From assembly GCF_900095865.1 (NCBI RefSeq), contig NZ_FMIZ01000005.1, positions 62,001 to 126,000 of the forward strand: a stretch of DNA of 64,000 bases, in the 5' to 3' direction. The stretch is from Massilioclostridium coli. GTDB lineage: Bacteria > Bacillota > Clostridia > Oscillospirales > Ruminococcaceae. This document shows, one piece after another, positions 2,313 through 30,952 of this stretch. Under the pieces are notes generated by a model. The model did not search any database. It was not told the origin of the DNA and saw only the letters and a list, made by a program, of their open reading frames with translations. A program made the translations under genes and the position numbers. Within the stretch, counting starts at the first letter, position 1. Each line of letters begins with the position of its first letter.

Positions 2313-2367
2313 ATTCCATTTGAAAACGGCTGACAATTTAATACCGCCGCCCATCACAGCGGCAGAT

Positions 2368-4914: not shown

Positions 4915-5109
4915 ATGCCACGCATGAGCAAAAAGCGGCGGTTGGAATGGAGCTTTTTCCTCAACCACCGAAACCGTATTACCTACAATGACCTTTGCCG
5001 GGGCTGCACACACGGCTGCAAGCAGAGCTTCCGGGCGATTATCGTCCTCTGCCCCCGGTATTTCTCTAAGAGATGGAAACACAGGGAGGACACCGCCAAT
5101 GGCAGATAA
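4915..5109 (+). CDS. Small conserved Cys-containing protein of mobilizable elements
   Basis: A 64-residue basic protein beginning MPRMSKKRRLEWSFFLNHRN, with a CRGCTHGC cysteine cluster near the middle and a further cysteine before PRYFSKR. GAAAGGAG lies six bases before the ATG. Such a short gene is commonly found between the relaxase and the replication initiator in clostridial mobilizable elements; the function is unknown. The cysteine spacing (C-x2-C-x3-C) could bind a metal. Its last 11 bp overlap the next gene. Confidence 0.6.
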   Translation: MPRMSKKRRLEWSFFLNHRNRITYNDLCRGCTHGCKQSFRAIIVLCPRYFSKRWKHREDTANGR

Positions 5110-6675: not shown

Positions 6676-6687
6676 AAGGAGTTGCCT

Positions 6688-6879
6688 ATGGCAGAGAACA
6701 AGCAGAACACCACCCCGGAACGCCGCCCGGACTGCGTGACAGAGATCCGCATGGGCAACACCGTCCTTGTCGTTTCCGGCTTTTTCAAAAAAGATACCAC
6801 CGACACCGCAGCCGATAAGATGATGAAAGTGCTGGAGGCGGAAGCCGCCGCAGGACACAAAGCCCAGCTTTCGCCCTAA
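6688..6879 (+). CDS. tnpW: TnpW-like transposon-encoded protein
   Basis: A 63-residue protein (MAENKQNTTPERRPD... then IRMGNTVLVVSGFFKKDTTD and a C-terminal helix with KMMKVLEAEA). It matches the small TnpW protein that accompanies the serine recombinase in Tn4451-like elements. The start at 6688 follows AAAGGAG by six bases. The precise role is not established; location immediately before tnpX suggests a link with excision or its control. Confidence 0.7.
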   Translation: MAENKQNTTPERRPDCVTEIRMGNTVLVVSGFFKKDTTDTAADKMMKVLEAEAAAGHKAQLSP

Positions 6880-6944
6880 CGCTACAAGCCGCACAGAAAA
6901 ATCGTCATTTTACCGGGCGGTAAAGAAGCAGAAGCCGCTATACA

Positions 6945-8621
<1,677 letters not shown>

Positions 8622-8708
8622 CCGCCCGCCCTATCCGATATCAAAGGCAAGTATCGGATAGGAAAGGCAAAATTTTTTACGCTTCTATTACTTCTTTATC
8701 ACACATAA
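8622..8708. other. Right terminal segment of the mobilizable element
   Basis: Between the recombinase stop and the first base of maff2 homology lie 87 bases. They include a short repeat, CCTATCCGATA (8629-8640 region) and TATCGGATAGG (8652-8662), which form an inverted pair and could be recombinase end-binding sequence. An in-frame TAA (8706-8708) directly precedes the maff2 codons, showing where the foreign DNA stops. Confidence 0.5.
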
Positions 8709-8804
8709 GCAAAAAGCCAGGGCATGAAACAGCTCATGGCGGGCGGCGGCGTTGCCCTTATCGGCGGCACCCTTGTACCTCTGCTTTCCGGCCTGTTCGG
8801 TTAA
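8709..8804 (+). pseudogene. maff2 3' fragment, disrupted by the nested element
   Basis: The frame reads AKSQGMKQLMAGGGVALIG and ends LVPLLSGLFG, which is the C-terminal part of the Maff2 family of small membrane proteins found before the TrbL/VirB6-like gene in Tn1549-type ICEs. Family members have an upstream half with a first membrane helix and then ...NPGAKSQGMKQLMAGG; here the upstream half is replaced by mobilizable-element DNA. Thus the nested element inserted inside this gene. A short peptide from the ATG at 8724 could still be made (26 residues, one hydrophobic helix). Confidence 0.75.
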
Positions 8805-8820
8805 GCGGCGGGGTTAGCTT

Positions 8821-9690
8821 ATGCAGAGCATACTTGACGCGATTAACGAATGGATAAAGGAAATCCTCATTGGAGCCATTAACGGTAATCTGTCAACTAT
8901 GTTCGGGGACGTAAACGAAAAAGTCGGAACTATCGCCGCAGAGGTAGGACAAACCCCGCAGGGGTGGAACGCAGGCATATTTTCCATGATACAGAGCTTG
9001 TCGGAAAATGTGATTGTACCCATTGCGGGGCTTGTCATTACCTACGTTCTATGCGTGGAGCTTATCAGCATGGTAACGGAAAAGAACAATATGCACGATA
9101 TTGACACGTTCATGTTCTTTAAGTGGTTTTTCAAGGCGTGGGTAGCGGTGTATCTCGTTACCCACACCTTTACTATCACTATGGCGGTGTTCGATATGGC
9201 GCAACACGTTGTTTCCGGCGCGGCGGGCGTGATCGGCGGCGATACGAATATCGACGTTGACGCCGCCCTCTCGTCCATGCAAGCCGGACTTGACGCTATG
9301 GAAATCCCCGAACTGTTACTGCTCGTTATGGAAACAAGCCTTGTGAGCCTTTGCATGAAAATCATGTCGGTGCTTATCACGGTTATCCTGTACGGCAGAA
9401 TGATAGAGATTTACCTTTACTGTTCGGTATCGCCTATCCCGTTTGCAACTATGACTAACAGAGAGTGGGGACAGATAGGAAACAACTACTTAAAAGCCCT
9501 GTTCGCCCTCGGTTTTCAAGGCTTCCTCATTATGATATGCGTCGGCATTTATGCGGTTTTGGTTGGCAGCATGATTGTAGCGGACAACCTGCACAGCGCG
9601 ATTTTCTCCCTTGCAGCCTACACCGTGATTTTGTGCTTCTCCCTATTCAAAACAGGCGCACTTGCGAAGTCAATCTTTAACGCACATTAA
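8821..9690 (+). CDS. TrbL/VirB6-like conjugal transfer membrane protein
   Basis: A 289-residue polytopic membrane protein starting MQSILDAINEWIKEILIGAI, with about six hydrophobic segments and the family-typical GNLSTMFGDVNEKVGTIAAE and SVSPIPFATMTNREWGQIGNNY. VirB6/TrbL proteins form the inner-membrane channel part of type IV secretion systems. It is the first intact gene of the ICE transfer operon to the right of the insertion. Because maff2 just upstream is broken, expression may now depend on promoters in the inserted element. Confidence 0.85.
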   Translation: MQSILDAINEWIKEILIGAINGNLSTMFGDVNEKVGTIAAEVGQTPQGWNAGIFSMIQSLSENVIVPIAGLVITYVLCVELISMVTEKNNMHDIDTFMFFKWFFKAWVAVYLVTHTFTITMAVFDMAQHVVSGAAGVIGGDTNIDVDAALSSMQAGLDAMEIPELLLLVMETSLVSLCMKIMSVLITVILYGRMIEIYLYCSVSPIPFATMTNREWGQIGNNYLKALFALGFQGFLIMICVGIYAVLVGSMIVADNLHSAIFSLAAYTVILCFSLFKTGALAKSIFNAH

Positions 9691-9711
9691 AGACCGAAAG
9701 GAGGTTTTCAC

Positions 9712-10122
9712 TTGGCGTATGTACCCGTACCCAAAGACTTATCAAAAATCAAAACGAAAGTCGCTTTTAATCTGACAAAGCGGCAGATTATATGTTTTGC
9801 GGCAGCCCTCGCTATGGGACTACCGCTTTTCTTTTTACTCAAAGACAGCGCGGGAACAAGCATGGCGGCATTTGCAATGATTATCGTTATGCTTCCCTGC
9901 TTCCTCTTGGCAATGTATGAAAAACACGGGCAGCCCCTTGAAGTCGTGATAAAGAACGTCATTCAGACAAAGTTTATCCGACCAAAGGAACGCCCCTATC
10001 AGACGGAAAATTTTTATGTCGTCATAGAAAAACAACGAAAACTGGAAAAGGAGGTATCGGCTATTGTCAATGGCAGAACGAAAAATCATGACCCGCGCGG
10101 TAAAAAATCCCGTGAAGCGTAA
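9712..10122 (+). CDS. PrgI-family conjugation protein
   Basis: A 136-residue protein with two membrane helices (about 25-45 and 50-68) in the usual PrgI arrangement: VPVPKDLSKIKTKVAFNLT, then helices, then a basic cytoplasmic tail. PrgI proteins are VirB3-like partners of VirB4. The start is TTG (9712) with AAAGGAGG eight bases before it. Its tail overlaps the virB4 start by 59 bp, typical of this operon. Confidence 0.85.
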   Translation: MAYVPVPKDLSKIKTKVAFNLTKRQIICFAAALAMGLPLFFLLKDSAGTSMAAFAMIIVMLPCFLLAMYEKHGQPLEVVIKNVIQTKFIRPKERPYQTENFYVVIEKQRKLEKEVSAIVNGRTKNHDPRGKKSREA

Positions 10123-12499
10123 GCTGACCCGCGCAGAAAAGAAAGAAATCGCCGCCGTGATACAGGCAGCAAAGGGCGACGGGAAGCCCCACACCGCGCA
10201 GCAGACCATTCCCTACTTGCAGATGTACCCGGACGGGATTTGCAGGGTAACGGAAAAGAAATACTCGAAAAGCCTTGTCTTTGAAGATATTAACTATCAG
10301 CTTGCACAGGCAGATGATAAGACCGCTATTTTTGAAAACTGGTGCGATTTTCTCAACTACTTTGGCGCTTCCGTTTCGGTGCAGCTCTCTTTCATCAATC
10401 AGGGCGCAAGAAAGGAAAAGGCACAGGCAGCTATCGAAATTCCGGCGCAAGACGACGCTTTTAACTCTATCCGCAAAGAGTACGCGGATATGCTGAAAAA
10501 TCAGCTTGAAAAAGGCAACAACGGACTGGAAAAGTGCAAGTACATTACCTTTTCCATTGAAGCGGACAATCTCGCAGCCGCAAAAGCCCGCCTTTCCCGT
10601 ATCGAAACCGACGTACTCAATAATTTTAAGGTGCTTGGCGCGGCTGCCCGCCCCATGAACGGGCAGGAACGCTTGAACGTGCTGCATGGGATTTTCCACC
10701 CGGAGGGCGAGCCGTTCCGTTTCTCTTGGGACTGGCTCGTACCGTCCGGGCTTACCACAAAGGACTTTATCGCCCCGTCCTCGTTCCGCTTTGGCGACGG
10801 CAGGACGTTTCGCATGGGGCGTAAGCTCGGCGCGGTTAGCTTCCTTGAAATCCTTGCGCCGGAGCTGAACGACCGTATGCTTTCGGACATTCTCGACCTT
10901 GAAAACGGAATTATCGTCAATCTGCATATCCGCAGTATCGACCAGAGCGAAGCAATCAAGACTATCAAGCGCAAAATTACCGACCTCGACAAGATGAAGA
11001 TTGAGGAACAGAAAAAAGCGGTACGCAGCGGGTACGACATGGATATAATCCCGTCCGACCTTGCCACCTTTGGCAGCGAAGCAAAGAACCTGTTGCAGGA
11101 TTTACAGAGCAGAAATGAAAGAATGTTTCTGCTGACGTTCCTTGTGGTAAACATGGCAGACACGAAGCGGAAACTGGATAATGACATCTTTGCTACGGCG
11201 GGCTTTGCACAGAAAAACAACTGCGCTCTGACCCGCCTTGACTATTTGCAGGAAGCGGGCTTTATGTCCTCTATCCCACTTGGGGAGAACCTTATCCCCA
11301 TTCAAAGAGGGCTTACCACATCAAGCACCGCTATTTTTATCCCGTTTATCACGCAGGAGCTTTTTCAGCGGGGCGCAGCCCTGTATTACGGCTTAAATGC
11401 GCTGTCAAACAACATGATACTCTGCGACCGCAAGCAACTGAAAAACCCAAACGGGCTTATTCTTGGAACACCGGGAAGCGGTAAATCCTTTGCGGCAAAA
11501 CGGGAAATGACAAACGCCTTTCTCATTACCGACGACGATATTATTATCTGCGACCCGGAAGCAGAATATTTTTCCCTTGTGCAGCGTTTGGGCGGGCAAG
11601 TGATACGCCTGTCGCCTGCCGGAAAAGGCATGGACGGTAAGCCCCAGTATGTGAACCCTATGGATATTAACCTCAACTACTCCGAGGACGACAACCCACT
11701 TGCCTTGAAATCCGACTTTATCCTTTCCCTTTGTGAGCTTGTTATCGGCGGCAAAGAGGGCTTGCAGCCCGTGGAAAAGACCGTCATTGACCGCGCCGTT
11801 AGGAATGTGTACCGACCTTTCCTTGCAGACCCCGACCCGGAAAAAATGCCGATTTTGGGCGACCTTTACAACGAGCTTTTGAAGCAGCCGGAGCCGGAAG
11901 CTGCCCGCATTGCGGCGGCATTGGAGCTTTATGTTTCCGGCTCTCTGAACGTCTTTAACCACCGTACCAACGTGGAGCTTTCTAACCGCCTTGTCTGCTT
12001 TGATATTAAACAGCTTGGAAAGCAGCTCAAAAAGTTAGGTATGCTCATTGTGCAAGACCAGGTATGGAACCGCGTTACCGTAAACCGCGCCGAGAAAAAG
12101 GCGACCCGTTACTATATGGACGAGTTTCATTTGCTTTTGAAAGAGGAACAGACCGCAGCCTATTCCGTGGAGATTTGGAAGCGTTTTCGTAAATGGGGCG
12201 GCATACCGACGGCAATCACACAGAACGTCAAAGACCTTTTATCAAGCCGCGAAGTCGAGAATATCTTTGAAAACTCCGATTTTGTCCTCATGCTCAATCA
12301 GGCACAGGGCGACCGGGCTATCCTTGCAAAGCAGCTCAATATCTCCCCGCAGCAGATGAAGTATGTGACCCATACCGAAGCGGGCGAGGGGCTTATCTTT
12401 TACGGAAACGTGGTGCTGCCATTCATTGACCGCTTCCCGACGGACACCGAGCTTTACCGTCTGCTTACGACAAAGCCGGAGGAAGTGAGCAAGCCATGA
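10064..12499 (+). CDS. VirB4-like conjugation ATPase
   Basis: An 811-residue cytoplasmic ATPase that would energise assembly of, and transfer through, the type IV secretion channel. Walker A is GTPGSGKSFAAKREM near residue 470 and Walker B is TRYYMDEFHLLL near residue 687; the N-terminal 400 residues form the VirB4-specific domain (CagE/TrbE/VirB type). The start is TTG at 10064, nine bases after AAAGGAGG; ATG at 10070 is possible but spaced poorly. It overlaps the methyltransferase start by 4 bp (ATGA). Confidence 0.9.
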   Translation: MSMAERKIMTRAVKNPVKRKLTRAEKKEIAAVIQAAKGDGKPHTAQQTIPYLQMYPDGICRVTEKKYSKSLVFEDINYQLAQADDKTAIFENWCDFLNYFGASVSVQLSFINQGARKEKAQAAIEIPAQDDAFNSIRKEYADMLKNQLEKGNNGLEKCKYITFSIEADNLAAAKARLSRIETDVLNNFKVLGAAARPMNGQERLNVLHGIFHPEGEPFRFSWDWLVPSGLTTKDFIAPSSFRFGDGRTFRMGRKLGAVSFLEILAPELNDRMLSDILDLENGIIVNLHIRSIDQSEAIKTIKRKITDLDKMKIEEQKKAVRSGYDMDIIPSDLATFGSEAKNLLQDLQSRNERMFLLTFLVVNMADTKRKLDNDIFATAGFAQKNNCALTRLDYLQEAGFMSSIPLGENLIPIQRGLTTSSTAIFIPFITQELFQRGAALYYGLNALSNNMILCDRKQLKNPNGLILGTPGSGKSFAAKREMTNAFLITDDDIIICDPEAEYFSLVQRLGGQVIRLSPAGKGMDGKPQYVNPMDINLNYSEDDNPLALKSDFILSLCELVIGGKEGLQPVEKTVIDRAVRNVYRPFLADPDPEKMPILGDLYNELLKQPEPEAARIAAALELYVSGSLNVFNHRTNVELSNRLVCFDIKQLGKQLKKLGMLIVQDQVWNRVTVNRAEKKATRYYMDEFHLLLKEEQTAAYSVEIWKRFRKWGGIPTAITQNVKDLLSSREVENIFENSDFVLMLNQAQGDRAILAKQLNISPQQMKYVTHTEAGEGLIFYGNVVLPFIDRFPTDTELYRLLTTKPEEVSKP

Positions 12500-16488: not shown

Positions 16489-18584
16489 AACTTGTGATTT
16501 GTGAGAAACCCAGCGTCGGGGCGGCGGTTGCCGCCGCCCTTGGCGTAAGGGAAAAGAAAGACGGATATATCGAGGGGAACGGTTATGTTATCTCTTGGTG
16601 TATCGGGCATTTAGTAGGACTTGCGGAAGCTGCCGCCTATGGGGAACAGTACAAAAAGTGGAGCTATGACAGCTTACCCATTCTGCCGCAGGAATGGCAG
16701 TACACCGTAGCTGCCGACAAGGGAAAGCAATTCAAAATCTTAAAAGACCTCATGCACCGCGCCGACGTTTCCGAGGTTGTCAACGCCTGCGACGCAGGGC
16801 GCGAGGGCGAGCTGATTTTCCGCTTTGTCTATCATCAAGCGGGCTGCAAGAAGCCCTTTACCCGTCTTTGGATTTCCTCAATGGAAAACGAAGCAATCCG
16901 AAGCGGCTTTGACAATCTGAAGGACGGGCGGGAATACGACGCCCTCTACCATTCCGCACTATGCAGGGCAAAGGCTGACTGGCTTATCGGTATCAATGCG
17001 ACCCGCCTTTTCTCCTGCCTGTATGGAAAGACCTTGAACGTGGGACGTGTGCAGACCCCGACCTTAAAAATGCTTGTAGACCGGGACGCTGCCATTATGA
17101 ACTTCAAGAAAGAAAAATATTACCATGTGTGCCTTATGCTTTCCGGCGCGGAAGCGGCAAGCGCGAAGATCCGCGCCGCTGATGAAGCAAGCGAACTGAA
17201 AGCGGCCTGCGAAGCGTCGGCGGCTGTCTGCACTTCCTTGACCCGTGAAAAGAAAACCGTTGCCCCGCCGAAGCTCTTTGACCTTACCTCTCTGCAACGG
17301 GAAGCAAACCGTATCTACGGGTACACGGCAAAGCAGACCCTTGACCTTGCACAGACCTTGTATGAAAAGAAGCTGCTTACTTATCCGAGAACGGACAGCA
17401 ACTATCTGACCGACGACATGGGCGACACGGCAAAAAGCATGGTAACGCTTCTCTGCGGCAAGCTGCCCTTTATGGCGGGCGTTTCCTTTACGCCGGAGCT
17501 TGTAAAGGTACTGAACAGCAAAAAAGTATCCGACCACCACGCCATTATCCCCACAATAGAGCTTGCAAAAGCTGACCTTTCCGCGCTGCCGGAAAGTGAA
17601 AGAAATATCCTTACCCTTACCGGGGCGCGGCTGCTTATGGCGACCGCAGCGCCGCACGTTTACGAAGCGGTAACGTCGGTTTTCTCCTGCGCCGACCATG
17701 ACTTTACGGCAAGGGGAAAAATGGTAATCGCTGCCGGGTGGAAAGACATTGACCGTCGCTTTCGGGCGACCATCAAAAAGAAGCCCGACAGCGACGACGA
17801 GGAAAACGAACTTGCGTTAGATGTGCCGGATTATACCGAGGGGCAGACCTTTGAAAATCCTGCCGCAGCGGTTACGGAGCATGACACCACGCCCCCGAAG
17901 CCTCACAATGAAGCAAGCCTGTTGTCGGCTATGGAACGCGCCGGGAATGAGGACACCGACCCGGACGCAGAACGCCGGGGGCTTGGTACGCCTGCCACCC
18001 GCGCCGCCGTCATTGAGAAGTTAGTCAAAGGCGGCTTTATCGAGCGCAAGGGCAAGCAGCTATTTCCCACCAAAGACGGCACAAACCTTGTCTGCGTCCT
18101 GCCGGACAGCTTAACTTCTCCGCAGCTTACGGCGGCATGGGAAAACAATCTAACGCAGATTGCAAAGGGCAACGCCGACCCTGCCGCTTTCATGCAGGAT
18201 ATCGAAGCTATGGCGCAGGAGCTTGTAAAAACCTATGCTTCCGTATTGGGCGAAAAGCCGGAGCTTTTCAAGACAGAGAAAACAGAACTTGGGAAGTGTC
18301 CCCGCTGCAAATCCCCGGTTTATGAGGGAAAGAAAAACTACTACTGTTCCAACAAAGATTGTGGCTTTATCATGTGGAAAAATGACCGCTTCTTTGAGGA
18401 ACGAAAGACCGCCTTTACACCGAAGATTGCCGCAGCACTCTTAAAATCCGGCAAGGTAAAAGTCAAAAAGCTGTACTCTCCGAAAGCGGGCAAAACCTAC
18501 GATGGAACGGTACTTTTAGCCGACACGGGCGGCAAGTATGTGAATTACAAAGTAACCATTTCAAAGGACAAACAACTTGAATAG
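16485..18584 (+). CDS. topB: DNA topoisomerase III (type IA)
   Basis: A 699-residue type IA topoisomerase. The Toprim domain begins LVICEKPSVGAAVAAALG and has NACDAGREGELIFR; the active-site tyrosine lies in LLTYPRTDSNYLTDD. A C-terminal zinc ribbon (GKCPRCKSPVYEG ... YYCSNKDCGF) is present. ICE-encoded topoisomerases probably resolve the transferred or replicating single strand. Its stop codon overlaps the first bases of a 37-bp repeat arm (18579-18615). Confidence 0.9.
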   Translation: MKLVICEKPSVGAAVAAALGVREKKDGYIEGNGYVISWCIGHLVGLAEAAAYGEQYKKWSYDSLPILPQEWQYTVAADKGKQFKILKDLMHRADVSEVVNACDAGREGELIFRFVYHQAGCKKPFTRLWISSMENEAIRSGFDNLKDGREYDALYHSALCRAKADWLIGINATRLFSCLYGKTLNVGRVQTPTLKMLVDRDAAIMNFKKEKYYHVCLMLSGAEAASAKIRAADEASELKAACEASAAVCTSLTREKKTVAPPKLFDLTSLQREANRIYGYTAKQTLDLAQTLYEKKLLTYPRTDSNYLTDDMGDTAKSMVTLLCGKLPFMAGVSFTPELVKVLNSKKVSDHHAIIPTIELAKADLSALPESERNILTLTGARLLMATAAPHVYEAVTSVFSCADHDFTARGKMVIAAGWKDIDRRFRATIKKKPDSDDEENELALDVPDYTEGQTFENPAAAVTEHDTTPPKPHNEASLLSAMERAGNEDTDPDAERRGLGTPATRAAVIEKLVKGGFIERKGKQLFPTKDGTNLVCVLPDSLTSPQLTAAWENNLTQIAKGNADPAAFMQDIEAMAQELVKTYASVLGEKPELFKTEKTELGKCPRCKSPVYEGKKNYYCSNKDCGFIMWKNDRFFEERKTAFTPKIAAALLKSGKVKVKKLYSPKAGKTYDGTVLLADTGGKYVNYKVTISKDKQLE

Positions 18585-18615
18585 CAAGCATAGGAAGCGG
18601 GTACCCACTTCCGTA
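18579..18615 (+). repeat. Left arm of a perfect 37-bp inverted repeat
   Basis: Identical, in reverse complement, to 25931-25967. The arm begins in the last codons of the topoisomerase gene (GAATAG) and ends CCACTTCCGTA. The two arms enclose about 7.3 kb with the anti-defence, helper, relaxase and mobC genes. Confidence 0.95.
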
Positions 18616-18653
18616 AAATCCCTGCCACTCTTACCGAGCTTGGCGGGGATTTT
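18615..18653 (+). terminator. Stem-loop that may terminate the transfer operon
   Basis: AAAATCCCTGCCA (18615-18627) pairs with TGGCGGGGATTTT (18641-18653) with one G-T pair, ending in TTTT. It may serve as an intrinsic terminator after topB and also forms part of the oriT-like structure. Confidence 0.5.
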
Positions 18654-18786
18654 GCTTGTTGGGAAGTTTCCCAAACCCTCTAAAAATCCTCAAAAATCTT
18701 TGGCAGAAATGCGGGCGCACCGTAGTAGGACTATGTAACCACAAACGCAGCGTCCGCGCTGCCATACGCGAAAGGAGGTTTTACAC

Positions 18787-21700
18787 ATGGCAAGTTTGCG
18801 CGACAGCGTAAAGGACTATCAAGAGGAACTTAGGGACGGTATCGCATGGGTGGCGTTTTGGAAAGAGGGGCGTTCATGGAACGCCGAGCTGTTTCATCTC
18901 GAAGTGGACGGCACTTTAGAACCGTTTGACAGGAGCCGGTTAGAGGAAATCAAAGCGGCTGACCCCGCCGCTGTAATCCTAAACGGCTACTACTGCGGGC
19001 ATTTAGGCGAGGATATGAGCCTTGACGAGCTGACCGCCGGAGTGCGCTATCACTATGAAAACAGCATGAATGACCTTGACGGTTTTATCGGGGCGCATGA
19101 CGACAGACTTCCCCCGGAGGTTATCAAAGAAGCAAGAGCCGCCGCCCATGCAGTGGGGCTTCCCTTTTCCGAAAAGCCCTACCGGGACGGGGAAGATTTT
19201 GACCCTTATGTATTTGACGGGAGCATGAGCATTGAGGACTACGAGCTTATGCACCGCATGATTGAAAAAGAAAGGAGCGAGCAAATGGACGAATGGAAAA
19301 CAGGTTATTCCTCATATGACCGCGACAGACTGGACGCCGCCGACAAAATGAAGATTGAGCGCGGTATCTATTTTGAAACGAAAGACGCGGATATTTCCCC
19401 GCTGACCGCCTTACCCCTTGCCGAGCTTATGAAGCTGCGAGAGGAAAGCGCGGCTGCGGAGCAGACCGTATTTGAAAATCTAAAAGTACAGGCTTCCGCA
19501 TGGGAGGAACAGGCAGCTAAGACCCTGCTATTTGACAAGGCGATTGAGTATGCGAGAATACCCGAAGTGAAGCACACTGCGAACAAATGGCAGGACGAGG
19601 GCAACGACCGCCACACTATCAGCAATCGGGTATATAAAATGAGCTACCATGTTTACGAAAATACCCGTTACGACAAGGCAGCACAGAAGTCTATCCCGTA
19701 TTCCTATACGCTGTCTTGGAACGTCTACACCAACAGCCCCCACGGATACGGACAGGCGAAAATCGCCGGACAGGACAGAAAGGTATTTGCTGACCGGGCG
19801 GCTATGGAAAAATATCTGAATGGGCGTATCAAGGCGTATGAAAAACTTTTTACGGAAATATCCCCGGTTATCCCGCCGGAATACGCGGAACAGTTTAGGG
19901 TAAACGGGCAGCTCTTACCGGGCTACACCGTAGAGGGAGAGGAAATCAAGCAGCCCGCCGCCGACATTCCCGCCGCTGCACCGAGAACCGAACCGGGACA
20001 GGAAACGGAACAGTTTGCAATCCTGATTGACAGCCGCACCCGTTTTGAAACGGGAGAACCGGGTGGCTACTGGCTTTCCATGCCCGCCACCAAAGAGCAG
20101 CTTCACGAAGCCATGCGAAGCGTCGGCATTACCGCAGACAACCCGCAGGAATTTTTCATTCACGGCTACTCTGACCGGGAGGACAGGCACATTGCCCTGC
20201 CTTATGACATGGTATGCGCGGCACAGGTGGACGAGCTGAATTTTCTTGCGGCACGACTGGAAACCCTTGACGCTTCCGGGATTGCCGCGCTGAACGCCGC
20301 CACACAGCGAAAGAACGGTTTTGAGAATATCGGGCAGATAATCGACCTAACCTATAACCCGGACTTTTTCGTGCATATTCCCGAAGTACATAATCCCCGC
20401 GAATTAGGCGATTATTACCTTAACAAATCCGGCATGGTGCAAATGCCCGCTGAATGGAAAAACAGCATTGACCTTATCGCCTTTGGACGAAACGCCGCCG
20501 CACAGGAAAAAGGCAGCTTTACGGAATACGGCTACCTTGTGGAAAGCGGCGACGCATGGGAGAAACACTTTGAGGGGCGCGATGTGCCGGAGGACTACCG
20601 CATTATGAGCTACCCGCAGCCGACCGTCGAACTGGACGCAGCCCCGGCATTACAGGCGGCTGTTCCCGAAGCAACGCCGCAGGAGCCACGCCCGGTTATC
20701 CCCATTGTCTTAACGTCCGAGAAACCCGCCGAAAAGCTCAAAGAAATAACTGACCGCTTGGAGCAGGGTATTACGGAGCTGTTCGACAGCGAGCGTTACA
20801 AGGAATATCTGCGCGTTATGTCAAAATTTCATAATTACAGCTTTAACAATACGCTGCTGATCGCCATGCAGAAGCCCGACGCTTCTCTTATCGCCGGATT
20901 TTCCGCATGGAAAAATAACTTTGGGCGAAATGTGATGAAAGGACAAAAGGGTATCAAAATCCTTGCACCGTCGCCCTTTAAGATTAAAAAAGAAATGGAG
21001 AAAATCGACCCGCAGACACAGAAAGTCATTATCGGTAAGGACGGAAAGCCCGTAACCGAAGAAAAGGAAATCACAATCCCCGCCTTTAAGGTGGTATCTG
21101 TCTTTGATGTATCGCAGACCGAGGGCAAGGAAATCCCCGACATTGCCGTAAATATGCTGACTGGAGATGTGGAGCATTACAAGGACGTTTTCGCTGCCCT
21201 TGAAAAGACTTCCCCTGTTCCCGTTGCTTTTGAGAAAATCGAGGGCGGCGCACACGGATACTACCATTTGGAGGACAAACGTATTGCCCTTGATGAGGGC
21301 ATGAGCGAGCTGCAAACATTAAAAACCCTTATCCATGAAATCGCCCATGCGAAGCTCCATGACATTGACCTTAACGCCCCTTTGGAGGACTTGGAGAACA
21401 GACCCGACCGCCGCACCCGCGAGGTACAGGCAGAAAGTATCGCCTATACCGTGTGCCAGCATTACGGGCTTGATACTTCTGACTATTCCTTTGGGTACGT
21501 TGCAGGGTGGAGTGCCGGACGAGAGCTTGCCGAACTGAAAAGCTCTCTTGAAACAATCCGCAGCACCGCCGCCGAGATTATCAATTCCATTGACGGACAT
21601 ATCGCAGAGCTGCAAAAGGCACAGGAACAGGCGCAGGACGCGCCGAGGGAGAAAGCCGCCATGCCGGAGTACATTTATAAGATTGAAGCCAACCCCCGCA

Positions 21701-22503
21701 CAACGGGCGACAACGACCGCTTTTTCCTGCAAGCCTATCTCCCGCAGGAAAACGGCAGGGCAAAAATCGGGGACGTGCTGTATATCGGCAGCCTTGCAAA
21801 ATGCCGGGAACTCATGGGCGGGCTGAACGCCGGAGAGCTGACGCAGGGAGAAGTAAAGGAGCTATATGCAAAGGCGCAGGAAGCCGAAGCCGACAAAGAC
21901 ACCTTTTCCATTTATCAGCTAAAGCAAGGGGACGAAACGCGGGACTTCCGCTTTGAGCCTTACGACCGCCTGCAGGCGGCGGGAAATGTGGTTGATAAGG
22001 CAAACTATGAGCTTGTCTATTCCGCAGAGCTTACGCCGGGTACTTCCCTTGAAGATATTTACACCCGTTTCAATATCGACCACCCGAAAGATTTTAAGGG
22101 ACACAGCCTTTCTGTTTCCGACGTGGTAGTGCTTCATCAGAACGGACAGGACGCGGCGCATTATGTTGATAGTTTCGGCTACAAGGAAGTGCCGGAGTTT
22201 TTGCAGGAGCAGACACAACAGCCGGAAAAGATAAACCCGCTAAAGCACGTTGAGGACACAATCGAGCAGAATGACAACAGCTTTGACGGTATCATCAACA
22301 ACACCCCTACTGTTGACGAACTGGAAGCAAAGGTAAAAGCCGGGGAACAAATTTCCCTTGTTGACCTTGCGGAAGCGATTAAGGCAGACAAAGAACGCGG
22401 CAAAGAGAAGCCCTCTATCCGGGCGCAGCTCAAAGCGGATAAGGAACGGGCGGGAAAGAAGAAACCCACGAAGCAAAAATCGCAGGACTTGGAAAGGAGC
22501 TGA
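18787..22503 (+). CDS. Giant multidomain anti-defence protein (ArdA-like, ArdC-like/zincin, DUF4316/YodL)
   Basis: A 1238-residue protein. By order: an N-terminal domain (about 1-140) of large polyvalent-protein type; an ArdA-like region (about 405-605, with YWLSMPATKEQLHEAM and VDELNFLAARL); an ArdC-like single-strand DNA-binding region (about 665-760, FHNYSFNNTLLIAMQKP, GFSAWKNNFGRNVMKGQKGI) followed by a zincin metallopeptidase motif LIHEIAHAKLH near residue 855; then a DUF4316/YodL region (about 960-1140, FSIYQLKQGDETRDFRFEPY). Ard proteins block host restriction when DNA enters, so this is inferred to protect the ICE during establishment. The C terminus carries PSIRAQLKADKER, a tail also found in the next protein. 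AAAGGAGG precedes the ATG. Confidence 0.8.
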   Translation: MASLRDSVKDYQEELRDGIAWVAFWKEGRSWNAELFHLEVDGTLEPFDRSRLEEIKAADPAAVILNGYYCGHLGEDMSLDELTAGVRYHYENSMNDLDGFIGAHDDRLPPEVIKEARAAAHAVGLPFSEKPYRDGEDFDPYVFDGSMSIEDYELMHRMIEKERSEQMDEWKTGYSSYDRDRLDAADKMKIERGIYFETKDADISPLTALPLAELMKLREESAAAEQTVFENLKVQASAWEEQAAKTLLFDKAIEYARIPEVKHTANKWQDEGNDRHTISNRVYKMSYHVYENTRYDKAAQKSIPYSYTLSWNVYTNSPHGYGQAKIAGQDRKVFADRAAMEKYLNGRIKAYEKLFTEISPVIPPEYAEQFRVNGQLLPGYTVEGEEIKQPAADIPAAAPRTEPGQETEQFAILIDSRTRFETGEPGGYWLSMPATKEQLHEAMRSVGITADNPQEFFIHGYSDREDRHIALPYDMVCAAQVDELNFLAARLETLDASGIAALNAATQRKNGFENIGQIIDLTYNPDFFVHIPEVHNPRELGDYYLNKSGMVQMPAEWKNSIDLIAFGRNAAAQEKGSFTEYGYLVESGDAWEKHFEGRDVPEDYRIMSYPQPTVELDAAPALQAAVPEATPQEPRPVIPIVLTSEKPAEKLKEITDRLEQGITELFDSERYKEYLRVMSKFHNYSFNNTLLIAMQKPDASLIAGFSAWKNNFGRNVMKGQKGIKILAPSPFKIKKEMEKIDPQTQKVIIGKDGKPVTEEKEITIPAFKVVSVFDVSQTEGKEIPDIAVNMLTGDVEHYKDVFAALEKTSPVPVAFEKIEGGAHGYYHLEDKRIALDEGMSELQTLKTLIHEIAHAKLHDIDLNAPLEDLENRPDRRTREVQAESIAYTVCQHYGLDTSDYSFGYVAGWSAGRELAELKSSLETIRSTAAEIINSIDGHIAELQKAQEQAQDAPREKAAMPEYIYKIEANPRTTGDNDRFFLQAYLPQENGRAKIGDVLYIGSLAKCRELMGGLNAGELTQGEVKELYAKAQEAEADKDTFSIYQLKQGDETRDFRFEPYDRLQAAGNVVDKANYELVYSAELTPGTSLEDIYTRFNIDHPKDFKGHSLSVSDVVVLHQNGQDAAHYVDSFGYKEVPEFLQEQTQQPEKINPLKHVEDTIEQNDNSFDGIINNTPTVDELEAKVKAGEQISLVDLAEAIKADKERGKEKPSIRAQLKADKERAGKKKPTKQKSQDLERS

Positions 22504-22506
22504 CCT

Positions 22507-23451
22507 ATGAATAAGTTTGAAGATGTGGACGTTATCACTTCCCTTGAAGCGATTATGAAACAGAATACCGCTTTTTATCAGAATGATTTTGACCTTGATA
22601 GAAACATTTTACAGAAAGCGGCGGCAAGCCCCACAGCCGAGGACAGGCGGCTTTTATGGTTTTCCCGCCCGTCCGGGACGAGCTGCTTCCGGGAGCGCGA
22701 CGTTTTTCTAAAAGGCACAAGACAGCATAACACATGGCGGTTTTACGGGGAACAGACGCGCGATAAAGTCCTTGCCTATGCGGTGGAGCTGACCGGGATT
22801 GTAAACGGAAAAATCAAAGGCAATCTCTATGAGCTTGACTATCCGCAGCATTTCCGGCACGTTAAGGAACAGGCATTACCCGCAGATAATTACACGCTGC
22901 TCTATGAGCATGGAGAACGGGTGCAGCCCGCCGGACAGTATCTTGACGGCAATCCCGACCCGCAGCTTGGGAAGTTTGAACGCTTTGAAGCGCAGCCTAA
23001 TGACCCGGAAGCATTGCATTTTCTCATGCGGGAGGAAAAGCGCAGCTATGACCGCTTAAAGCCGGGGGATTTCAAGGCGCATATTACCGCATTGCATGAC
23101 AGCCGGATTGAAGCCGAAGCACAGCGCATTGTAGCGGAAATGAAGCGGCAGGACAGCCCTAACAGCCCCAACAAAACACATTTCATGGTGGAGCTTTCGC
23201 CTTACTTTATGCAGTTAGCCTCTACAAAGGACACCGACCGTCTGTTTGCTATGCTGCCATACAAAACACTTTCTTTTTCTAAGATTGAGGGCAGACATGG
23301 CACTTTTGCATTTTTAGACAAAAGCGAGGACAGAAGCCGGAATATCCGAAAAGCGCGCCCCTCTGTCCGGGCGCAGCTTACCGCAGACAAGAAAACAGCC
23401 GCCCCGAAAAAGGCAGCGGCAAAAAGAAAAAATCACGATTTGGAGGTATGA
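22507..23451 (+). CDS. Conserved ICE protein of unknown function
   Basis: A 314-residue soluble protein starting MNKFEDVDVITSLEAIMKQN, three bases after the stop of the giant protein gene. It contains RRLLWFSRPSGTSCFRERDVF and YGEQTRDKVLAYAVELTG. I do not recognise a catalytic motif. Proteins of this kind follow the ArdC-like gene in Tn1549-type ICEs. Its last 35 residues (PSVRAQLTADKK then a Lys/Ala-rich stretch and NHDLEV) resemble the end of the preceding protein. Confidence 0.6.
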   Translation: MNKFEDVDVITSLEAIMKQNTAFYQNDFDLDRNILQKAAASPTAEDRRLLWFSRPSGTSCFRERDVFLKGTRQHNTWRFYGEQTRDKVLAYAVELTGIVNGKIKGNLYELDYPQHFRHVKEQALPADNYTLLYEHGERVQPAGQYLDGNPDPQLGKFERFEAQPNDPEALHFLMREEKRSYDRLKPGDFKAHITALHDSRIEAEAQRIVAEMKRQDSPNSPNKTHFMVELSPYFMQLASTKDTDRLFAMLPYKTLSFSKIEGRHGTFAFLDKSEDRSRNIRKARPSVRAQLTADKKTAAPKKAAAKRKNHDLEV

Positions 23452-23453
23452 GC

Positions 23454-23660
23454 ATGAATAGATTTACTGTTGAGGAAACAAACCTTTTGAGCATTTACCA
23501 TGAGGGAAGCAAGGCGCAGCTTATAGAGGACATGACCGCTGCGCTGCCTTACATGGACGCGGGATTACGGGAGCTTGCAAAGCGCACCCTTTCCAAAGTA
23601 GGCGCGCTGACCGAAGCCGAGTACAGGGAGCTTGCCGTTTATCCTGCTGATGAAGTATGA
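23454..23660 (+). CDS. Transposon-transfer assisting protein (TTAP family)
   Basis: A 68-residue protein (MNRFTVEETNLLSIYHEG ... EAEYRELAVYPADEV) matching the TTAP family, a small helical protein common in Tn1549-like ICEs and thought to support transfer. The ATG at 23454 is preferred over 23448 because GGAGGT is eight bases upstream. It overlaps the next gene by 4 bp. Confidence 0.75.
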   Translation: MNRFTVEETNLLSIYHEGSKAQLIEDMTAALPYMDAGLRELAKRTLSKVGALTEAEYRELAVYPADEV

Positions 23661-24022
23661 CCGGGATTAAGCGGCTGTCGCCGCGACAAAGCCGCAAGGT
23701 AAACACCCTTGTGAAAAAGGAGTGCTGCAACTGCGAGAATGGCAACTGTATTTTACTAGACGACGGGGACACTTGCGTATGCCCGCAGCTCATTTCCTAT
23801 TCGCTGCTCTGTAAGTGGTTTCGGATTGCCGTACTTCCTCTTGATAAGCTGCTCTTTGCGGAGCTTTACCATACCGACGATATGCGAAAGTGTATCGTGT
23901 GCGGTGCGTCCTTTGCGTCGAAGTCAAACAGCGTCAAATACTGCCCGGATTGCCGCAAGCGCATTACCCGCAGACAGGCAGCCGAGCGCATGAGAAAAAA
24001 GCGTACTCTTGTTACGCAGTAG
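23657..24022 (+). CDS. Cysteine-rich VLP domain protein
   Basis: A 121-residue protein with two cysteine clusters: CCNCENGNCILLDDGDTCVC near the N terminus, the signature of the Cys-rich VLP family, and CIVCGASF ... YCPDCRKR, a zinc-ribbon pattern followed by a basic helix. It is likely a small metal- and DNA-binding regulator or transfer helper. It starts at an ATGA overlap with the TTAP gene and is the last plus-strand gene before the convergent relaxase. Confidence 0.75.
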   Translation: MTGIKRLSPRQSRKVNTLVKKECCNCENGNCILLDDGDTCVCPQLISYSLLCKWFRIAVLPLDKLLFAELYHTDDMRKCIVCGASFASKSNSVKYCPDCRKRITRRQAAERMRKKRTLVTQ

Positions 24023-24072
24023 GGGCGAAAAAAGCCTTTGCTTGCAGGGTTTTTCGGACACAAAAACAAAGA

Positions 24073-24095
24073 GGTAAAGGATTGATACCTTTACC
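24073..24095. repeat. 8-bp hairpin between convergent genes
   Basis: GGTAAAGG (24073-24080) and CCTTTACC (24088-24095) pair perfectly around a 7-base loop; no T-run follows. Confidence 0.5.
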
Positions 24096-24147
24096 CCTAA
24101 AATCGCGGTTCTACTGCGTAACATTTCAAAAGCTGCACCTATGAGAA

Positions 24148-24194
24148 AACGGGCGCGGTGGCCAACATATCGGCTGCCGCGTCCGTTCTTTTTT
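24148..24194. terminator. Intrinsic terminator between Cys-rich VLP gene and relaxase
   Basis: AACGGGCGCGG (24148-24158) pairs with CCGCGTCCGTT (24178-24188, one G-T pair), with an inner GCC/GGC pair, followed by CTTTTTTATG. It lies at the meeting point of two convergent transcription units. Confidence 0.75.
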
Positions 24195-24202
24195 ATGCTT
24201 AT

Positions 24203-25552
24203 TTATCCGCGCTCGGTTTCTTTTGCCCGTTCCGGCTGACGTTCCACTTTCAAAATACTGTCGATGTTCTGCTTGATAACGTCGTATTCCTTGACTTGCT
24301 TTTTCAGTTTTCCATAGTCGGCATACAGGGCTTCTTTTTGTTTTTGAAGTGCTGCGTACTCTACTTGCAGGGCGGTAATGCTTGGGAGCTTGGAGATACC
24401 CGCTGCCTTGATTGTCTTTGCCGCTGCTTCATGGAGAATTATATCGCTCTCATGGGCTGCCCGGTATTTATCCTTATCCTTTGCCTTGCGGTATGCAGCA
24501 TAGGCAGGCTTTGTCTTTTGATAGGTAGTGATATGCTTGATAAGCAGCGTCATATCGGTAAGTCGCTTTTCAACCTCTTTTAAGCTGTCCGCTGCCTGTT
24601 CGCTTGCTGCGGTAACTTCCGCGATTTTCGCTGTCAGCTCTGCGTACTGCTCAATCTTGTGTTCCGTCAAGAAATTCATGGTTTTAGCTGCCTGTTTCAG
24701 ATTATGGATTTTTGCCCATTGCTCATAGCCCCGGCTTTCCTGCGCCTTGATACTGTTCTGAATATCAATGAGCAGACTAACGCCGCCGCGATCTGCGCGG
24801 GGAGCTTTCGCAGCGTGGGCGCGTTTGCCGCTTATCCGTTCACTGATAGCTTCCTCTGTATAATCTGCGCCGAGGGTTTTCAATCGGGTAAACCGTTCCT
24901 GTCCGGGAGCGCGGCAGGAGATATATTTTCCCGGCTTTATCTCATAGCCCGCCGCCTGTAATTTTGAAAGCAATTCCTCAAAATCTGATACTTGGGGAAT
25001 AAGCGCGTCCACGGCAATTTTTAGCTTGCCTTTATAGCTTGTACCCGTTTTCTCCGCTTGATACTCTGCATAGCTTTTTCCCTTGCTACCTCTGCTCGGA
25101 GTGATAACAGACAAGCCGTGTTCCCGGCACAGCTTATCGCTCATGTTCCGTATGCCGTAATAGCTGCGCTTGTTGGAATTGTACTTGTGGTGGTCTACGA
25201 AATTGACCGCGCAGAAAATCACATGATTATGGATATGTCCTTTGTCAATGTGAGTAGTCAAAACATATTCGTGCTGCCCTTTGGTTACTGCGTCTGCAAG
25301 CTGCCGTCCGATTTCATGGGCGGTCTGATAATCGACCTCTCCCGGCTCAAAGGATTGTATCAGATGGTGGGCTAAATTGTTTCCTTTATCCAACGCCTGC
25401 GACAGGGTAAAACCAAACTCAATGTCTGCCGTTTCATAGGCGCAGCCAAACGAGGACACAAGTATTTTTTCATCAGTCTTTGCGGGATTTTGGATATAGT
25501 CAAGGGCTTTGTTCAGCGTTCCTTTAATAGGCTTAATCTTTGTAACCGCCAT
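24203..25552 (-). CDS. MOBP-type relaxase of the ICE
   Basis: A 449-residue relaxase starting MAVTKIKPIKGTLNKALDYI. It has the HHLIQSFEPGE motif and the metal-binding triad HIDKGHIHNHVIF near residue 125; Tyr19 in the N-terminal block is a candidate nicking residue. The C-terminal half is helical. It should nick the oriT-like copy just upstream (25866-25967) and lead the transferred strand. Encoded on the minus strand, opposite to the transfer operon, and overlapping the mobC gene by 40 bp. Confidence 0.9.
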   Translation of the reverse strand: MAVTKIKPIKGTLNKALDYIQNPAKTDEKILVSSFGCAYETADIEFGFTLSQALDKGNNLAHHLIQSFEPGEVDYQTAHEIGRQLADAVTKGQHEYVLTTHIDKGHIHNHVIFCAVNFVDHHKYNSNKRSYYGIRNMSDKLCREHGLSVITPSRGSKGKSYAEYQAEKTGTSYKGKLKIAVDALIPQVSDFEELLSKLQAAGYEIKPGKYISCRAPGQERFTRLKTLGADYTEEAISERISGKRAHAAKAPRADRGGVSLLIDIQNSIKAQESRGYEQWAKIHNLKQAAKTMNFLTEHKIEQYAELTAKIAEVTAASEQAADSLKEVEKRLTDMTLLIKHITTYQKTKPAYAAYRKAKDKDKYRAAHESDIILHEAAAKTIKAAGISKLPSITALQVEYAALQKQKEALYADYGKLKKQVKEYDVIKQNIDSILKVERQPERAKETERG

Positions 25553-25842
25553 ATTTCCGCAAGCACCCCCTTTATTTCTTCTATGTCCTCTTGGTAGACG
25601 CTGCCTGTACTGTTCACACGCTTTGCAATCTGATTGACGTTGACACCGATTTTCTGTATCTCCGCTGTCATAGCTTTTATGTCGGTGTGGTCTACTTGCA
25701 GGATATACCCGTCAATGGCAATCTTCCGCAGATACGCCGCCATGTTCCGGGTGGGTATCAGCTTCATTTTTTCTTCTATTAAATCCCGTTCTGCTTCCGT
25801 TACTCTGAACTTGATTTGTACTGTTCTTTTTCGTCCGTCCAT
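25513..25842 (-). CDS. mobC: MobC-family relaxosome protein of the ICE
   Basis: A 109-residue protein. The N-terminal MDGRKRTVQIKFRVTEAERD resembles a ribbon-helix-helix domain, and the C-terminal part has the MobC pattern IQKIGVNVNQIAKRVNSTG. The ATG whose complement is at 25840-25842 follows an AAAGGAGC ribosome site. The gene begins 23 bases after the oriT-like core, as expected for an oriT-binding partner of the relaxase it overlaps. Confidence 0.85.
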   Translation of the reverse strand: MDGRKRTVQIKFRVTEAERDLIEEKMKLIPTRNMAAYLRKIAIDGYILQVDHTDIKAMTAEIQKIGVNVNQIAKRVNSTGSVYQEDIEEIKGVLAEIWRLQRLSLLKER

Positions 25843-25865
25843 GCTTTGACGCTCCTTTCCATTCC

Positions 25866-25967
25866 GAGGGTTTGGGACACTTCCCAACAAGCAATTTTGC
25901 CGACGCTGCCGCAGAGCAGGGCAGGCAAAATACGGAAGTGGGTACCCGCTTCCTATGCTTGCTATTC
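25866..25967 (-). other. oriT: Candidate oriT of the ICE, copy C (minus orientation)
   Basis: Read on the minus strand it has the same parts as copy B: the 37-base arm with a GGGTACCC-centred near-palindrome (25967 down to 25931), a hairpin with arms ATTTTGCC/GGCAAAAT (plus positions 25894-25901 and 25924-25931), and the core GCTTGTTGGGAAGTG... TCCCAAACCCTC (25892 down to 25866). It lies directly upstream of mobC and the relaxase gene, the usual oriT position. Confidence 0.7.
25931..25967 (-). repeat. Right arm of the perfect 37-bp inverted repeat
   Basis: Exact reverse complement of 18579-18615. In this copy the GAATAG end is not part of a gene, which suggests that this arm was copied from the 3' end of a topoisomerase-gene context rather than the reverse. 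Confidence 0.95.
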
Positions 25968-26019
25968 ATCTTTTCGCTTTCTTCCACGATAAAGACGGGA
26001 TTTTGCCAAAGACACCCGC

Positions 26020-26054
26020 AGGAAAAGAAAAACGCCATAGAAACACAGCGTTTC
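26020..26054 (-). terminator. Intrinsic terminator of the XRE regulator gene
   Basis: On the minus strand AACGCTATGGAAAC pairs with GTTTCTATGGCGTT (two G-T pairs), followed by TTTCTTTT. It lies about 30 bases beyond the regulator stop codon (26082). Confidence 0.65.
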
Positions 26055-26081
26055 CATAGCGTTCTTAGTGCATATTCAGTT

Positions 26082-26438
26082 TTAGTCATTGTCTTTTTCG
26101 ACTTCCGTTATTTCCTTTGCCGTAGCCGCAACGATACGCAAACCGTTATCGCTCATGCTGTCAAGCAGAGTATCAAGCTGCCGCCGCTGCGTGGACTTCT
26201 CGGCGTTATCATTCGGAAAGAAAAACTGGTCTACCGAAATATGATAACGAGTAACAAGGTCATAGAAAACTTGCAGGCTCGGCTGTTGTCCCTTGTTCTC
26301 GATATTCGCAAGATAGCGCGGGGATATATAGAGCGCGTCGCTTACCGTTTTGCGGCTCTCTCCGTATTCTTTTCTCGCGGCTTTTATGGCTGCCCCGAAC
26401 GCCTTAAAGTCATATAGTGGTACTGGTCGTTTAGCCAT
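26082..26438 (-). CDS. XRE-family helix-turn-helix regulator
   Basis: A 118-residue DNA-binding protein. The HTH spans roughly residues 10-65 (FGAAIKAARKEYGESRKTVS ... YISPRYLANIENKGQQPSL), ending in the typical SVDQFFF of XRE repressors. In related ICEs such genes sit near the relaxase and repress transfer functions. The start is the second ATG (26438), eight bases after AGAGGGTG; an ATG at 26444 would add two residues. The target operator is not identified. Confidence 0.8.
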   Translation of the reverse strand: MAKRPVPLYDFKAFGAAIKAARKEYGESRKTVSDALYISPRYLANIENKGQQPSLQVFYDLVTRYHISVDQFFFPNDNAEKSTQRRQLDTLLDSMSDNGLRIVAATAKEITEVEKDND

Positions 26439-26560
26439 TTTCATTCACCCTCTTACATTTTACTGTTCCCCTTTCTTTTTGAATATGTCTACACAGTTCA
26501 TAGTGTTAGCTTAAATAATGCCGATTATACAAAAGCGGTTGTAAACTTTCCAAAAACGCA

Positions 26561-30691: not shown

Positions 30692-30952
30692 ATGAATGAA
30701 GAAAAAATGAACGCCCCTTGTGCGATAGGCACTAAAGGAGCAGTTACAACTGGCAGCGAACAAAGAGTACCGATACATCTTAAACTGACATTGACCATAA
30801 AAGAAGCTGCCGAATATAGCAATATTGGAATTAACAAGATTGACACCATGCTAAAGCAACCTAATTGTCCATTTGTACTATATGTGGGGACAAGAAAATT
30901 AGTCAAACGTCGTGAATTTGAAGAATATATCCGGCGTGAGCTGACAATATGA
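30692..30952 (+). CDS. xis: Excisionase (Tn916 Xis-like)
   Basis: An 86-residue winged-helix DNA-binding protein. The region LTLTIKEAAEYSNIGINKID followed by FVLYVGTRKLVKRREFEEYI is the excisionase signature. GAAAGGGG is 10 bases before the ATG at 30692; earlier in-frame starts lack a ribosome site. Xis would steer the integrase towards excision. The integrase lies 107 bp downstream with its own promoter. Confidence 0.85.
   Translation: MNEEKMNAPCAIGTKGAVTTGSEQRVPIHLKLTLTIKEAAEYSNIGINKIDTMLKQPNCPFVLYVGTRKLVKRREFEEYIRRELTI

Follow-up and report, generated by a model that had tools for sequence, protein, structure and literature searches.

A second, inverted oriT-like site accompanies the transfer origin of Tn1549-type integrative and conjugative elements and tracks residue 13 of MobC

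Introduction

Why would an integrative and conjugative element (ICE) carry two copies of its origin of transfer (oriT), pointing in opposite directions? The question is raised by a stretch of 64,000 nucleotides from Massilioclostridium coli (RefSeq assembly GCF_900095865.1, contig NZ_FMIZ01000005.1, positions 62,001 to 126,000), called the window below, which holds an ICE of the Tn1549 family. Members of this family are common in gut Clostridia, and the vanB vancomycin-resistance element is one of them. A sequence-only reading of the window had described two inverted oriT-like sites around a 7.3-kb relaxase and anti-defence block, had considered such a pair unusual in one ICE, and had offered two transfer directions, inversion of the segment or a scar of modular insertion as explanations. 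In this study, we compared the two sites with each other, with those of related ICEs and with MobC, the relaxosome protein encoded beside the relaxase. We argue that the site behind topB, copy B, is most likely a second relaxosome site and probably a second working oriT.

Results

Two complete sites in inverted order

The sites and their hairpins are as follows.

18579 to 18680, plus strand: copy B, a complete oriT-like site with an arm holding the nick site (nic) and hairpin 1, then hairpin 2, the closing stem, hairpin 3 and an ACCCTC tail
18593 to 18612, plus strand: hairpin 1 (hp1) of copy B, GGAAG C GGGTACCC A CTTCC, predicted MobC site
18615 to 18653, plus strand: hairpin 2 (hp2) of copy B, GC-rich stem then TTTT, a class specific to B
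18659 to 18674, plus strand: hairpin 3 (hp3) of copy B, TTGGGA....TCCCAA
25866 to 25967, minus strand: copy C, oriT at the canonical place before mobC and the relaxase gene
25934 to 25953, minus strand: hairpin 1 of copy C, predicted MobC site
25872 to 25887, minus strand: hairpin 3 of copy C

That two inverted oriT-like sites are joined by a repeat proved to be real. The inverted repeats I1 (18578-18626 / 25920-25968, 49 nt, 92%) and I2 (18652-18680 / 25866-25894, 29 nt, 97%) are the top two of 38 inverted pairs between 12000 and 32000 (25 longest listed), and alignment of B with C gave a single unbroken common arm (GAATAGCAAGCATAGGAAGCGGGTACCCACTTCCGTA), followed by a divergent hairpin and then a common core; the arms are perfect over 37 bp. 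Covariance model R1 matched copy B at 18581-18679 with 101.8 bits and copy C at 25867-25965 with 96.8 bits. When folded as single-stranded DNA, both copies take the same shape, in which a GCAAGC/GCTTG closing stem encloses hairpins 1 and 2 and hairpin 3 follows; the fold has a z-score of -4.75 for B (0 of 200 shuffles equally good) and of -2.01 for C (5 of 200). Copy B has the same core sequence and hairpin as a Tn1549-type oriT.

At up to 3 mismatches, the 29-nt arm occurs in its own genome at the places of B and C only, and other types of site also occur there. Two further ICEs of the same genome, L119 (G000 C1 737000-756500) and L118 (G000 C1 1440000-1459900), likewise have an inverted pair of sites, each with hp1 of another type. 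Rfam gave no match for the site at E up to 1 (18000-26500 searched), and copy B was without a match among phages.

The pair is conserved among relatives

A search with the relaxase gave 215 relatives, of which the best 80 were taken as loci (L numbers in this text), a selection by which close relatives are favoured. Searches with B and C found C in 77 loci, B in 56 and both in 54. B is present in 55 of the 56 loci whose flank extends to the 3' end of topB, the exception being L023, where B is degenerate (26.7 bits); 26 of the 80 loci are without B, and 25 of these either have a flank that stops short of an intact topB 3' end or are L023 itself. In all 54 both-copy loci, B is inverted relative to C at a distance of 6.9-10.3 kb and adjoins a relative of the LPD/ArdA gene. 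A helix-turn-helix (HTH) gene stands beside C and topB beside B in 53 of them; in L053 neither is in place, and B is followed by unrelated genes, one of which resembles a transposase gene by eye.

The Tn1549-type vanB element of pMG2200 (L083) has both copies, with B inverted, and 14 of 14 enterococcal plasmid records that match the Tn1549-type oriT region show two places. Among 391 genomes of the class, the site covariance model matched in 54 (strict filters, 10 candidates scored per genome); all eight pairs lying on one contig within 20 kb, three of them in the genome of the window, are inverted, and their nic sides point outward. All 57 parsed B copies of the window clade retain the nic 9-mer GCAAGCATA; in divergent ICEs it reads GCAAGCACA in both copies or, in B of L126, AACAAGCATA. 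Far from being unusual in one ICE, the pair is thus standard among the close relatives examined, although five distant ICEs, discussed below, have no B.

These data bear on two explanations that require no second origin. The perfect 37-bp inverted arms could be recombination arms of an invertible 7.3-kb segment, which we regard as highly improbable: judged by gene neighbours, inverted isomers number 0 in the 54 both-copy loci (the assemblies show the main form only), which also speaks against the homologous or relaxase-mediated inversion proposed earlier, and hp1 differs between the copies in 12 of 53 ICEs. Similarly, the GC-rich hp2 of B followed by TTTT could make B only a transcription terminator of topB and the secretion operon. 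We give this very little credence. Copy B keeps nic, hairpin 1 and hairpin 3, none of which a terminator needs, and no tracking of MobC residue 13 (below) would be expected; another gene separates topB from B in L086, L118 and L123-L125; and a terminator consensus scan called none on the plus strand at B, though the hp2 stem and TTTT are visible in the sequence. The case in which B serves only topB, raised in the earlier reading, is therefore opposed by what B retains and by where it lies.

Copies B and C change together

For the comparison of the copies, 53 ICEs could be parsed, the window included. Two were not parseable and stand outside the 53: L074, whose C (9669-9705) is broken by an internal deletion that removed most of hp1-hp2 while B is intact, and L038, whose C is without hairpin 3. 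Between B and C, hp1 is identical in 41 of 53 ICEs, hp3 in 17 and hp2 in none; the GC-rich, TTTT-ended class of hp2 is found in B of all 53 and in C of none. Judged from these parsed sites, the copies are not homogenised as a whole, and the stretch that stays alike is the one matching the listed 28-bp oriT core of Tn1549.

In the 23 ICEs with relaxases below 95% identity, the mean edit distance of hp1 between B and C was 1.39 as against 4.75 when permuted (0 of 20000 permutations as low), and that of hp3 with the tail 1.22 as against 2.9 (0 of 20000); inside the window clade (18 ICEs), hp1 gave 1.06 as against 3.35 (1 of 20000). These permutations ignore kinship. On the relaxase tree of 44 paired ICEs, the hp1 type changes 9 times in C, 8 times in B and 10 times when both are counted jointly, so that at least 7 changes are common to both on the best tree; the types agree in 42 of the 44 ICEs, compared with 14.4 over 30 permutations. 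Matched variants, each present in B as well as in C, include hp3 TTGGGG..CCCCAA (L083, L119), hp3 TTGAGGGG..CCCCCAA (L126) and hp1 GCAAACGAGTACCCGTTTGC (L085, L118 and L123-L125). Because B was retained and changed jointly with C on several branches, a scar of modular insertion of the relaxase block, the third earlier proposal, is unlikely.

Could B be an old oriT duplicate without function, whose likeness to C is maintained by gene conversion across the inverted pair? That hp1 is usually identical would fit, yet conversion would have to stop at the functional core, leaving hp2 identical nowhere and hp3 in a minority; B also persists in 55 of 56 loci, and L017 and L048 have a matched hp1 but a B hp3 of another clade's type. 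We consider concerted evolution of this kind improbable.

The shape of the site was analysed with structure model A2. Thinning of 77 distinct sequences (141 in total) gave 35, from which L054C, L071C and L074B were left out, giving 32. Four of the seven hp1 pairs changed on both sides, the whole-site structure has 33 double-changed cells as against 9.8 in shuffles, and a single G-U stands among 559 paired cells. Further pair types numbered 7 as against 6.9 in shuffles (323 of 500), a control that gives the structure no support.

The inner letters of hairpin 1 follow MobC residue 13

In copy C, MobC with R at residue 13 goes with an inner hp1 triplet GGG in 45 of 45 cases, Y with GAG or GTG in 38 of 38, and P with a type of its own (GTGTAGCC or GTGTGGCT) in 4 of 5, the fifth being the broken L074. 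In copy B, the same rule holds for R with GGG in 32 of 33, Y with GAG or GTG in 26 of 27 and P with its own type in 5 of 5, that is in 63 of 65 testable, partly related ICEs; residue 13 of the window MobC is R. The 65 rows leave out L126, whose hairpin class is its own, and L014 and L046, in which the MobC residue is unreadable. The P class was defined after the data had been seen, and many MobC rows are near relatives. In L026 the outer hp1 letters differ and the inner triplet agrees; this locus and the other exceptions (L005, L075, L023, L053) were retained in the counts. On the tree, MobC changes 8 times, B 6 times and the two jointly 8 times, so that 6 changes are common. Among independent pairs that differ in MobC (n=4), B differs in the same way in 2 and is unchanged in 2; C differs in the same way in all 4.

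Residue 13 lies in what we take to be the DNA-contacting ribbon, as in Arc. MobC is homologous to PcfF (PDB 6qeq, E 2e-11), and its residue 13 aligns with PcfF R16. For PcfF, residues R13, I14 and R16 of the ribbon-helix-helix (RHH) ribbon are needed in vitro to bind the oriT inverted repeats, and mutation of R16 lowers oriT binding in vitro; the RHH mutants R13L and R13L/I14A had no strong effect on pCF10 transfer in vivo (PMC6514445). It is the tracking of residue 13 at B, our key result, that makes B most likely a second, oppositely oriented relaxosome site.

Predicted nick sites and transfer directions

The table of PMC7755788 gives for Tn1549 a single oriT, 28 bp at 22239-22266, with nic RYGCTTG|C. 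By comparison with two other insertions, the Tn1549-type element occupies 8580-42391 of pMG2200 (one of the two gives a left edge of 8568), and the listed oriT converts to 30818-30845 of pMG2200, while nic and hp1 of its copy C lie at 30817-30845. The mapping assumes that position 1 of the listed numbering is the element's first base; a left edge of 8568 would shift it by 12 bases without losing the overlap. Copy C can thus be assigned as the oriT of the Tn1549 type, with nic and first hairpin coinciding with the listed 28 bp at the homologous place. The Tn1549 consensus predicts two nick sites in the window.

25957 to 25962, plus strand: predicted nic of copy C, GCTTG|C between 25961 and 25962
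18584 to 18589, minus strand: predicted nic of copy B, GCTTG|C between 18585 and 18584, at the topB stop codon

From C, the transferred strand would run right, away from the relaxase, and from B it would run left. The hairpin that the sequence-only reading had taken as the core of the site (CTTGTTGGG...CCCTC) is indeed common to both copies, but it is not the listed nick site, which lies in the arm and on the other strand. The listed nic reverses the direction implied by taking that core as the nick: since it is on the opposite strand, transfer should run outward, away from the relaxase block, and since both predicted nics lead outward, the 7.3-kb block would be transferred last. The pair may permit two transfer directions, as suggested earlier, both of them outward by the listed nic. 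A nic past hairpin 3, placed there by analogy with RSF1010 so that the ArdA block would enter first, was dropped, as the listed oriT and RYGCTTG|C map to the arm on the other strand.

Sites in elements without a relaxase

Some elements hold an oriT-like site apart from a relaxase. L120 and L121 (9788-11652 in each) are two stretches of 1866 bp from the window's own genome, 99.6% identical; they hold an oriT-like site and a serine recombinase gene, which in L120 is split into two frames, and the 19.9 kb taken showed no relaxase match. L128 holds at 8062-10462 a 2.4-kb element with serine recombinase, oriT-like site and mobC and no relaxase match nearby, and L100 has a recombinase and a site. 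In neither L120 nor L128 does the site form part of a leader of the genes that the element itself carries; L120 does have a TetR-like gene, not within the repeated stretch, about 240 nt past the site. Such relaxase-less elements fit an origin carried in cis by hitchhikers, which argues that the motif acts as DNA. A role of the site as an RNA leader is disfavoured on the same grounds, given also the single G-U in 559 paired cells and the lack of an Rfam match.

Other types of site were seen as well. A third, different oriT-like site (34 bits) lies at 16041-16141 of L083, beside the vanB cluster of the pMG2200 element, and GGCAAGCA-type sites resembling it occur in L085 (4126-4226), L132 and L137. 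L137 has two different inverted oriT-like sites about 180 bp apart (9653-9719 and 9901-10001), with no relaxase match in 19.9 kb. In L129 (9944-10294), the start of mobC is fused to the end of the relaxase gene, a sign of decay.

The element and its genes

The window element is an ICE of the Tn1549/CTn type. It has the gene set of these elements (CD1110-family VirB4, TrbL/VirB6, CD1107-like, CHAP/NlpC, topB, relaxase with MobC, integrase), its gene order from VirB4 to mobC is that of the pMG2200 vanB element, and its integrase adjoins a YchF-type GTPase gene. Between B and C, mobC and the relaxase gene lie on the minus strand, and the LPD/ArdA, hypothetical and cysteine-rich VLP proteins are encoded on the plus strand. 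The name MOBP for the relaxase is taken over from the Tn1549 relaxase (PMC6856555).

16485 to 18584, plus strand: topB (topoisomerase III), last gene ahead of copy B
18787 to 22503, plus strand: LPD34/LPD15/ArdA/ArdC-N/YodL protein (anti-restriction type), first gene past copy B
22507 to 23451, plus strand: conserved hypothetical protein inside the block, no family match
23657 to 24022, plus strand: cysteine-rich VLP protein (PF14194)
24203 to 25552, minus strand: relaxase, MOBP-type (Pfam Relaxase, PF03432, E 4.5e-35)
25513 to 25842, minus strand: mobC, NikA/MobC-type ribbon-helix-helix relaxosome protein (PF21983, PF05713)
26082 to 26444, minus strand: HTH regulator, outer neighbour of copy C
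2622 to 2713, plus strand: site A, a weak third oriT-like site 5' of the MobC-like and relaxase genes of a nested element (R1 27.5 bits, E 4.6e-4)

The nested element is an apparent mobilizable element within the ICE (1169-8621), with a sigma factor, site A, a MobC-like protein, a second relaxase-domain protein (3113-4741), a phage replisome organiser, an IstB-like ATPase and a serine recombinase (7014-8621). Site A is not a member of the B/C pair.

Discussion

The comparison of the two sites suggests that copy B is a second relaxosome site, complete, oppositely oriented and served by the same MobC as copy C, and we hold it probable that it is also a second working oriT. What we observed directly is the presence, completeness, inverted order and conservation of B and C and their covariation with each other and with MobC; from this we infer MobC binding, nicking and a role of B in transfer or in rolling-circle replication of the excised form. 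In the mechanism we propose, the ribbon of MobC would bind to hairpin 1 of B or of C, with residue 13 reading the inner hairpin letters, and MobC would recruit the relaxase, which would nick the adjacent GCTTG|C. The strand leaving C would pass through the cargo and the integrase, and the strand leaving B, the other strand, through topB and the secretion genes; from either origin, the block of mobC, relaxase and ArdA/ArdC would enter last. The Tn1549 relaxase has been reported to be cis-acting (PMC6856555), as would suit an element with two retained sites of its own.

Several observations weigh against this interpretation. Five ICEs (L130, L139, L142, L145 and L147; relaxases 47-56% identical) have a C-like site and no B, by model or by self-comparison, so B is dispensable for some ICEs of the wider group. 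These five are the single-site ICEs with a readable topB-LPD junction; in L147, its own C-like site is also under the model threshold. The tracking of MobC has its failures, as C fits MobC and B does not in L005 and L075, which would be expected if the mobC-oriT module had recently been replaced there. Inside the window clade (18 ICEs), the B-C distance of hp3 with the tail was not significant (1.11 as against 1.19 permuted, 7124 of 20000 as low), and the closing stem is invariant throughout the 32 sites, so that it provides no evidence of covariation. The covariation rows are kin to each other, and the tree-based tests on independent pairs are too small for significance. Finally, conservation of sequence cannot separate a nicked site from a bound operator, and B precedes the LPD/ArdA gene, whose start is no more than about 40 nt away in several ICEs, so that a regulatory role would explain B as well.

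As to the limits of the pair, both copies are present in L126, whose relaxase is 50% identical, and more distant relaxases (35-43%) come with at most one site each. The trait of pair or single site changes twice on the tree, one change being possible. The idea that every ICE of the wider group needs the pair was rejected, as single-site ICEs exist.

The main rival is an operator: B would be a binding site of MobC or the relaxosome before the LPD/ArdA/ArdC operon, regulating the anti-restriction genes and rarely or never nicked productively, and relaxosome assembly may likewise autoregulate mobC at C. Each of the two sites immediately precedes an operon and is oriented alike with respect to it, and in several ICEs the stretch past the site scarcely has space for a promoter. 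In four of the five B-less ICEs (L130, L142, L145 and L147), 30-58 bp separate the topB match from the LPD match (about 560 in L139), as if B inserted a control point. The GC-rich hp2 with TTTT in 53 of 53 B copies would suit such a point, and tracking of MobC residue 13 is explained equally by an operator. On the other hand, nic heptamer, closing stem and hairpin 3 are not obviously needed for regulation, yet all are kept in B; with one G-U in 559 paired cells, conservation looks to be at the DNA rather than the RNA level; and no plus-strand promoter was found at B by a double-strand consensus scan, nor was hp2 called a terminator. On balance, we see B acting as an operator in place of an origin as possible but somewhat unlikely; a mixture of the two roles is also possible.

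Taking B as a second oriT, a bolder and quite speculative idea is that ICEs of the Tn1549 family are two-origin elements, in which one relaxosome would serve two outward-facing, oppositely stranded oriTs, either launching both strands, into the same or different recipients, or replicating the excised circle bidirectionally from a 7-kb core. To our knowledge, a bidirectional rolling-circle mode has not been described for an ICE. Independently of this idea, with B as a second oriT the element may be able to begin its transfer at two sites and send DNA out in both directions, and a conserved, oppositely directed second site that tracks MobC would change models of Tn1549 transfer, strand choice and replication. 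The specificity rule (MobC residue 13 and the inner hairpin letters) could also help to match origins to relaxosomes and to recognise hitchhikers that have no relaxase.

Known systems offer likenesses to parts of this arrangement. Tn1549 itself, with a MOBP relaxase and MobC, has its listed oriT, nic with hairpin 1, at the place homologous to copy C; the difference is that one oriT is listed there (PMC7755788), whereas an inverted B copy is seen here in the Tn1549-type element of pMG2200. In pCF10, PcfF is homologous to the window MobC, but the available text of PMC6514445 describes no second site. ICEclc has one relaxase and two origins (oriT1 and oriT2) on one ICE, interchangeable for the start of transfer (PMC5714925, PMC6561031); unlike the ICE studied here, it is proteobacterial with a MOBH relaxase, and its functions were tested, where ours are read from sequence. 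In plasmids of the IncX/R6K type, long inverted repeats contain two oriTs, of which one is close to the relaxase gene and the other lies elsewhere (PMC3402527, PMC5955891), and pAD1 and R6K have been named dual-oriT plasmids (PMC5587640); in IncX/R6K the second oriT of the plasmid lies near the replication gene, whereas copy B precedes an anti-restriction gene behind topB. The Frpo single-stranded promoters of leading regions are likewise hairpin-rich elements (PMC11541004) and, like B, stand 5' of an anti-restriction gene; the listed nic puts the ArdA block here at the lagging end, and no plus-strand promoter motif was found, so that a promoter of this type, considered as a candidate for B, has no support from the double-strand consensus scan. 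In our search of open-licence PMC papers, which did not cover the 2010 paper on Tn1549 mobilization, we found no mention of a second Tn1549 oriT. A dual origin is thus of a known kind, and, subject to that paper, a conserved, inverted pair that tracks MobC would appear to be new for the Tn1549 family.

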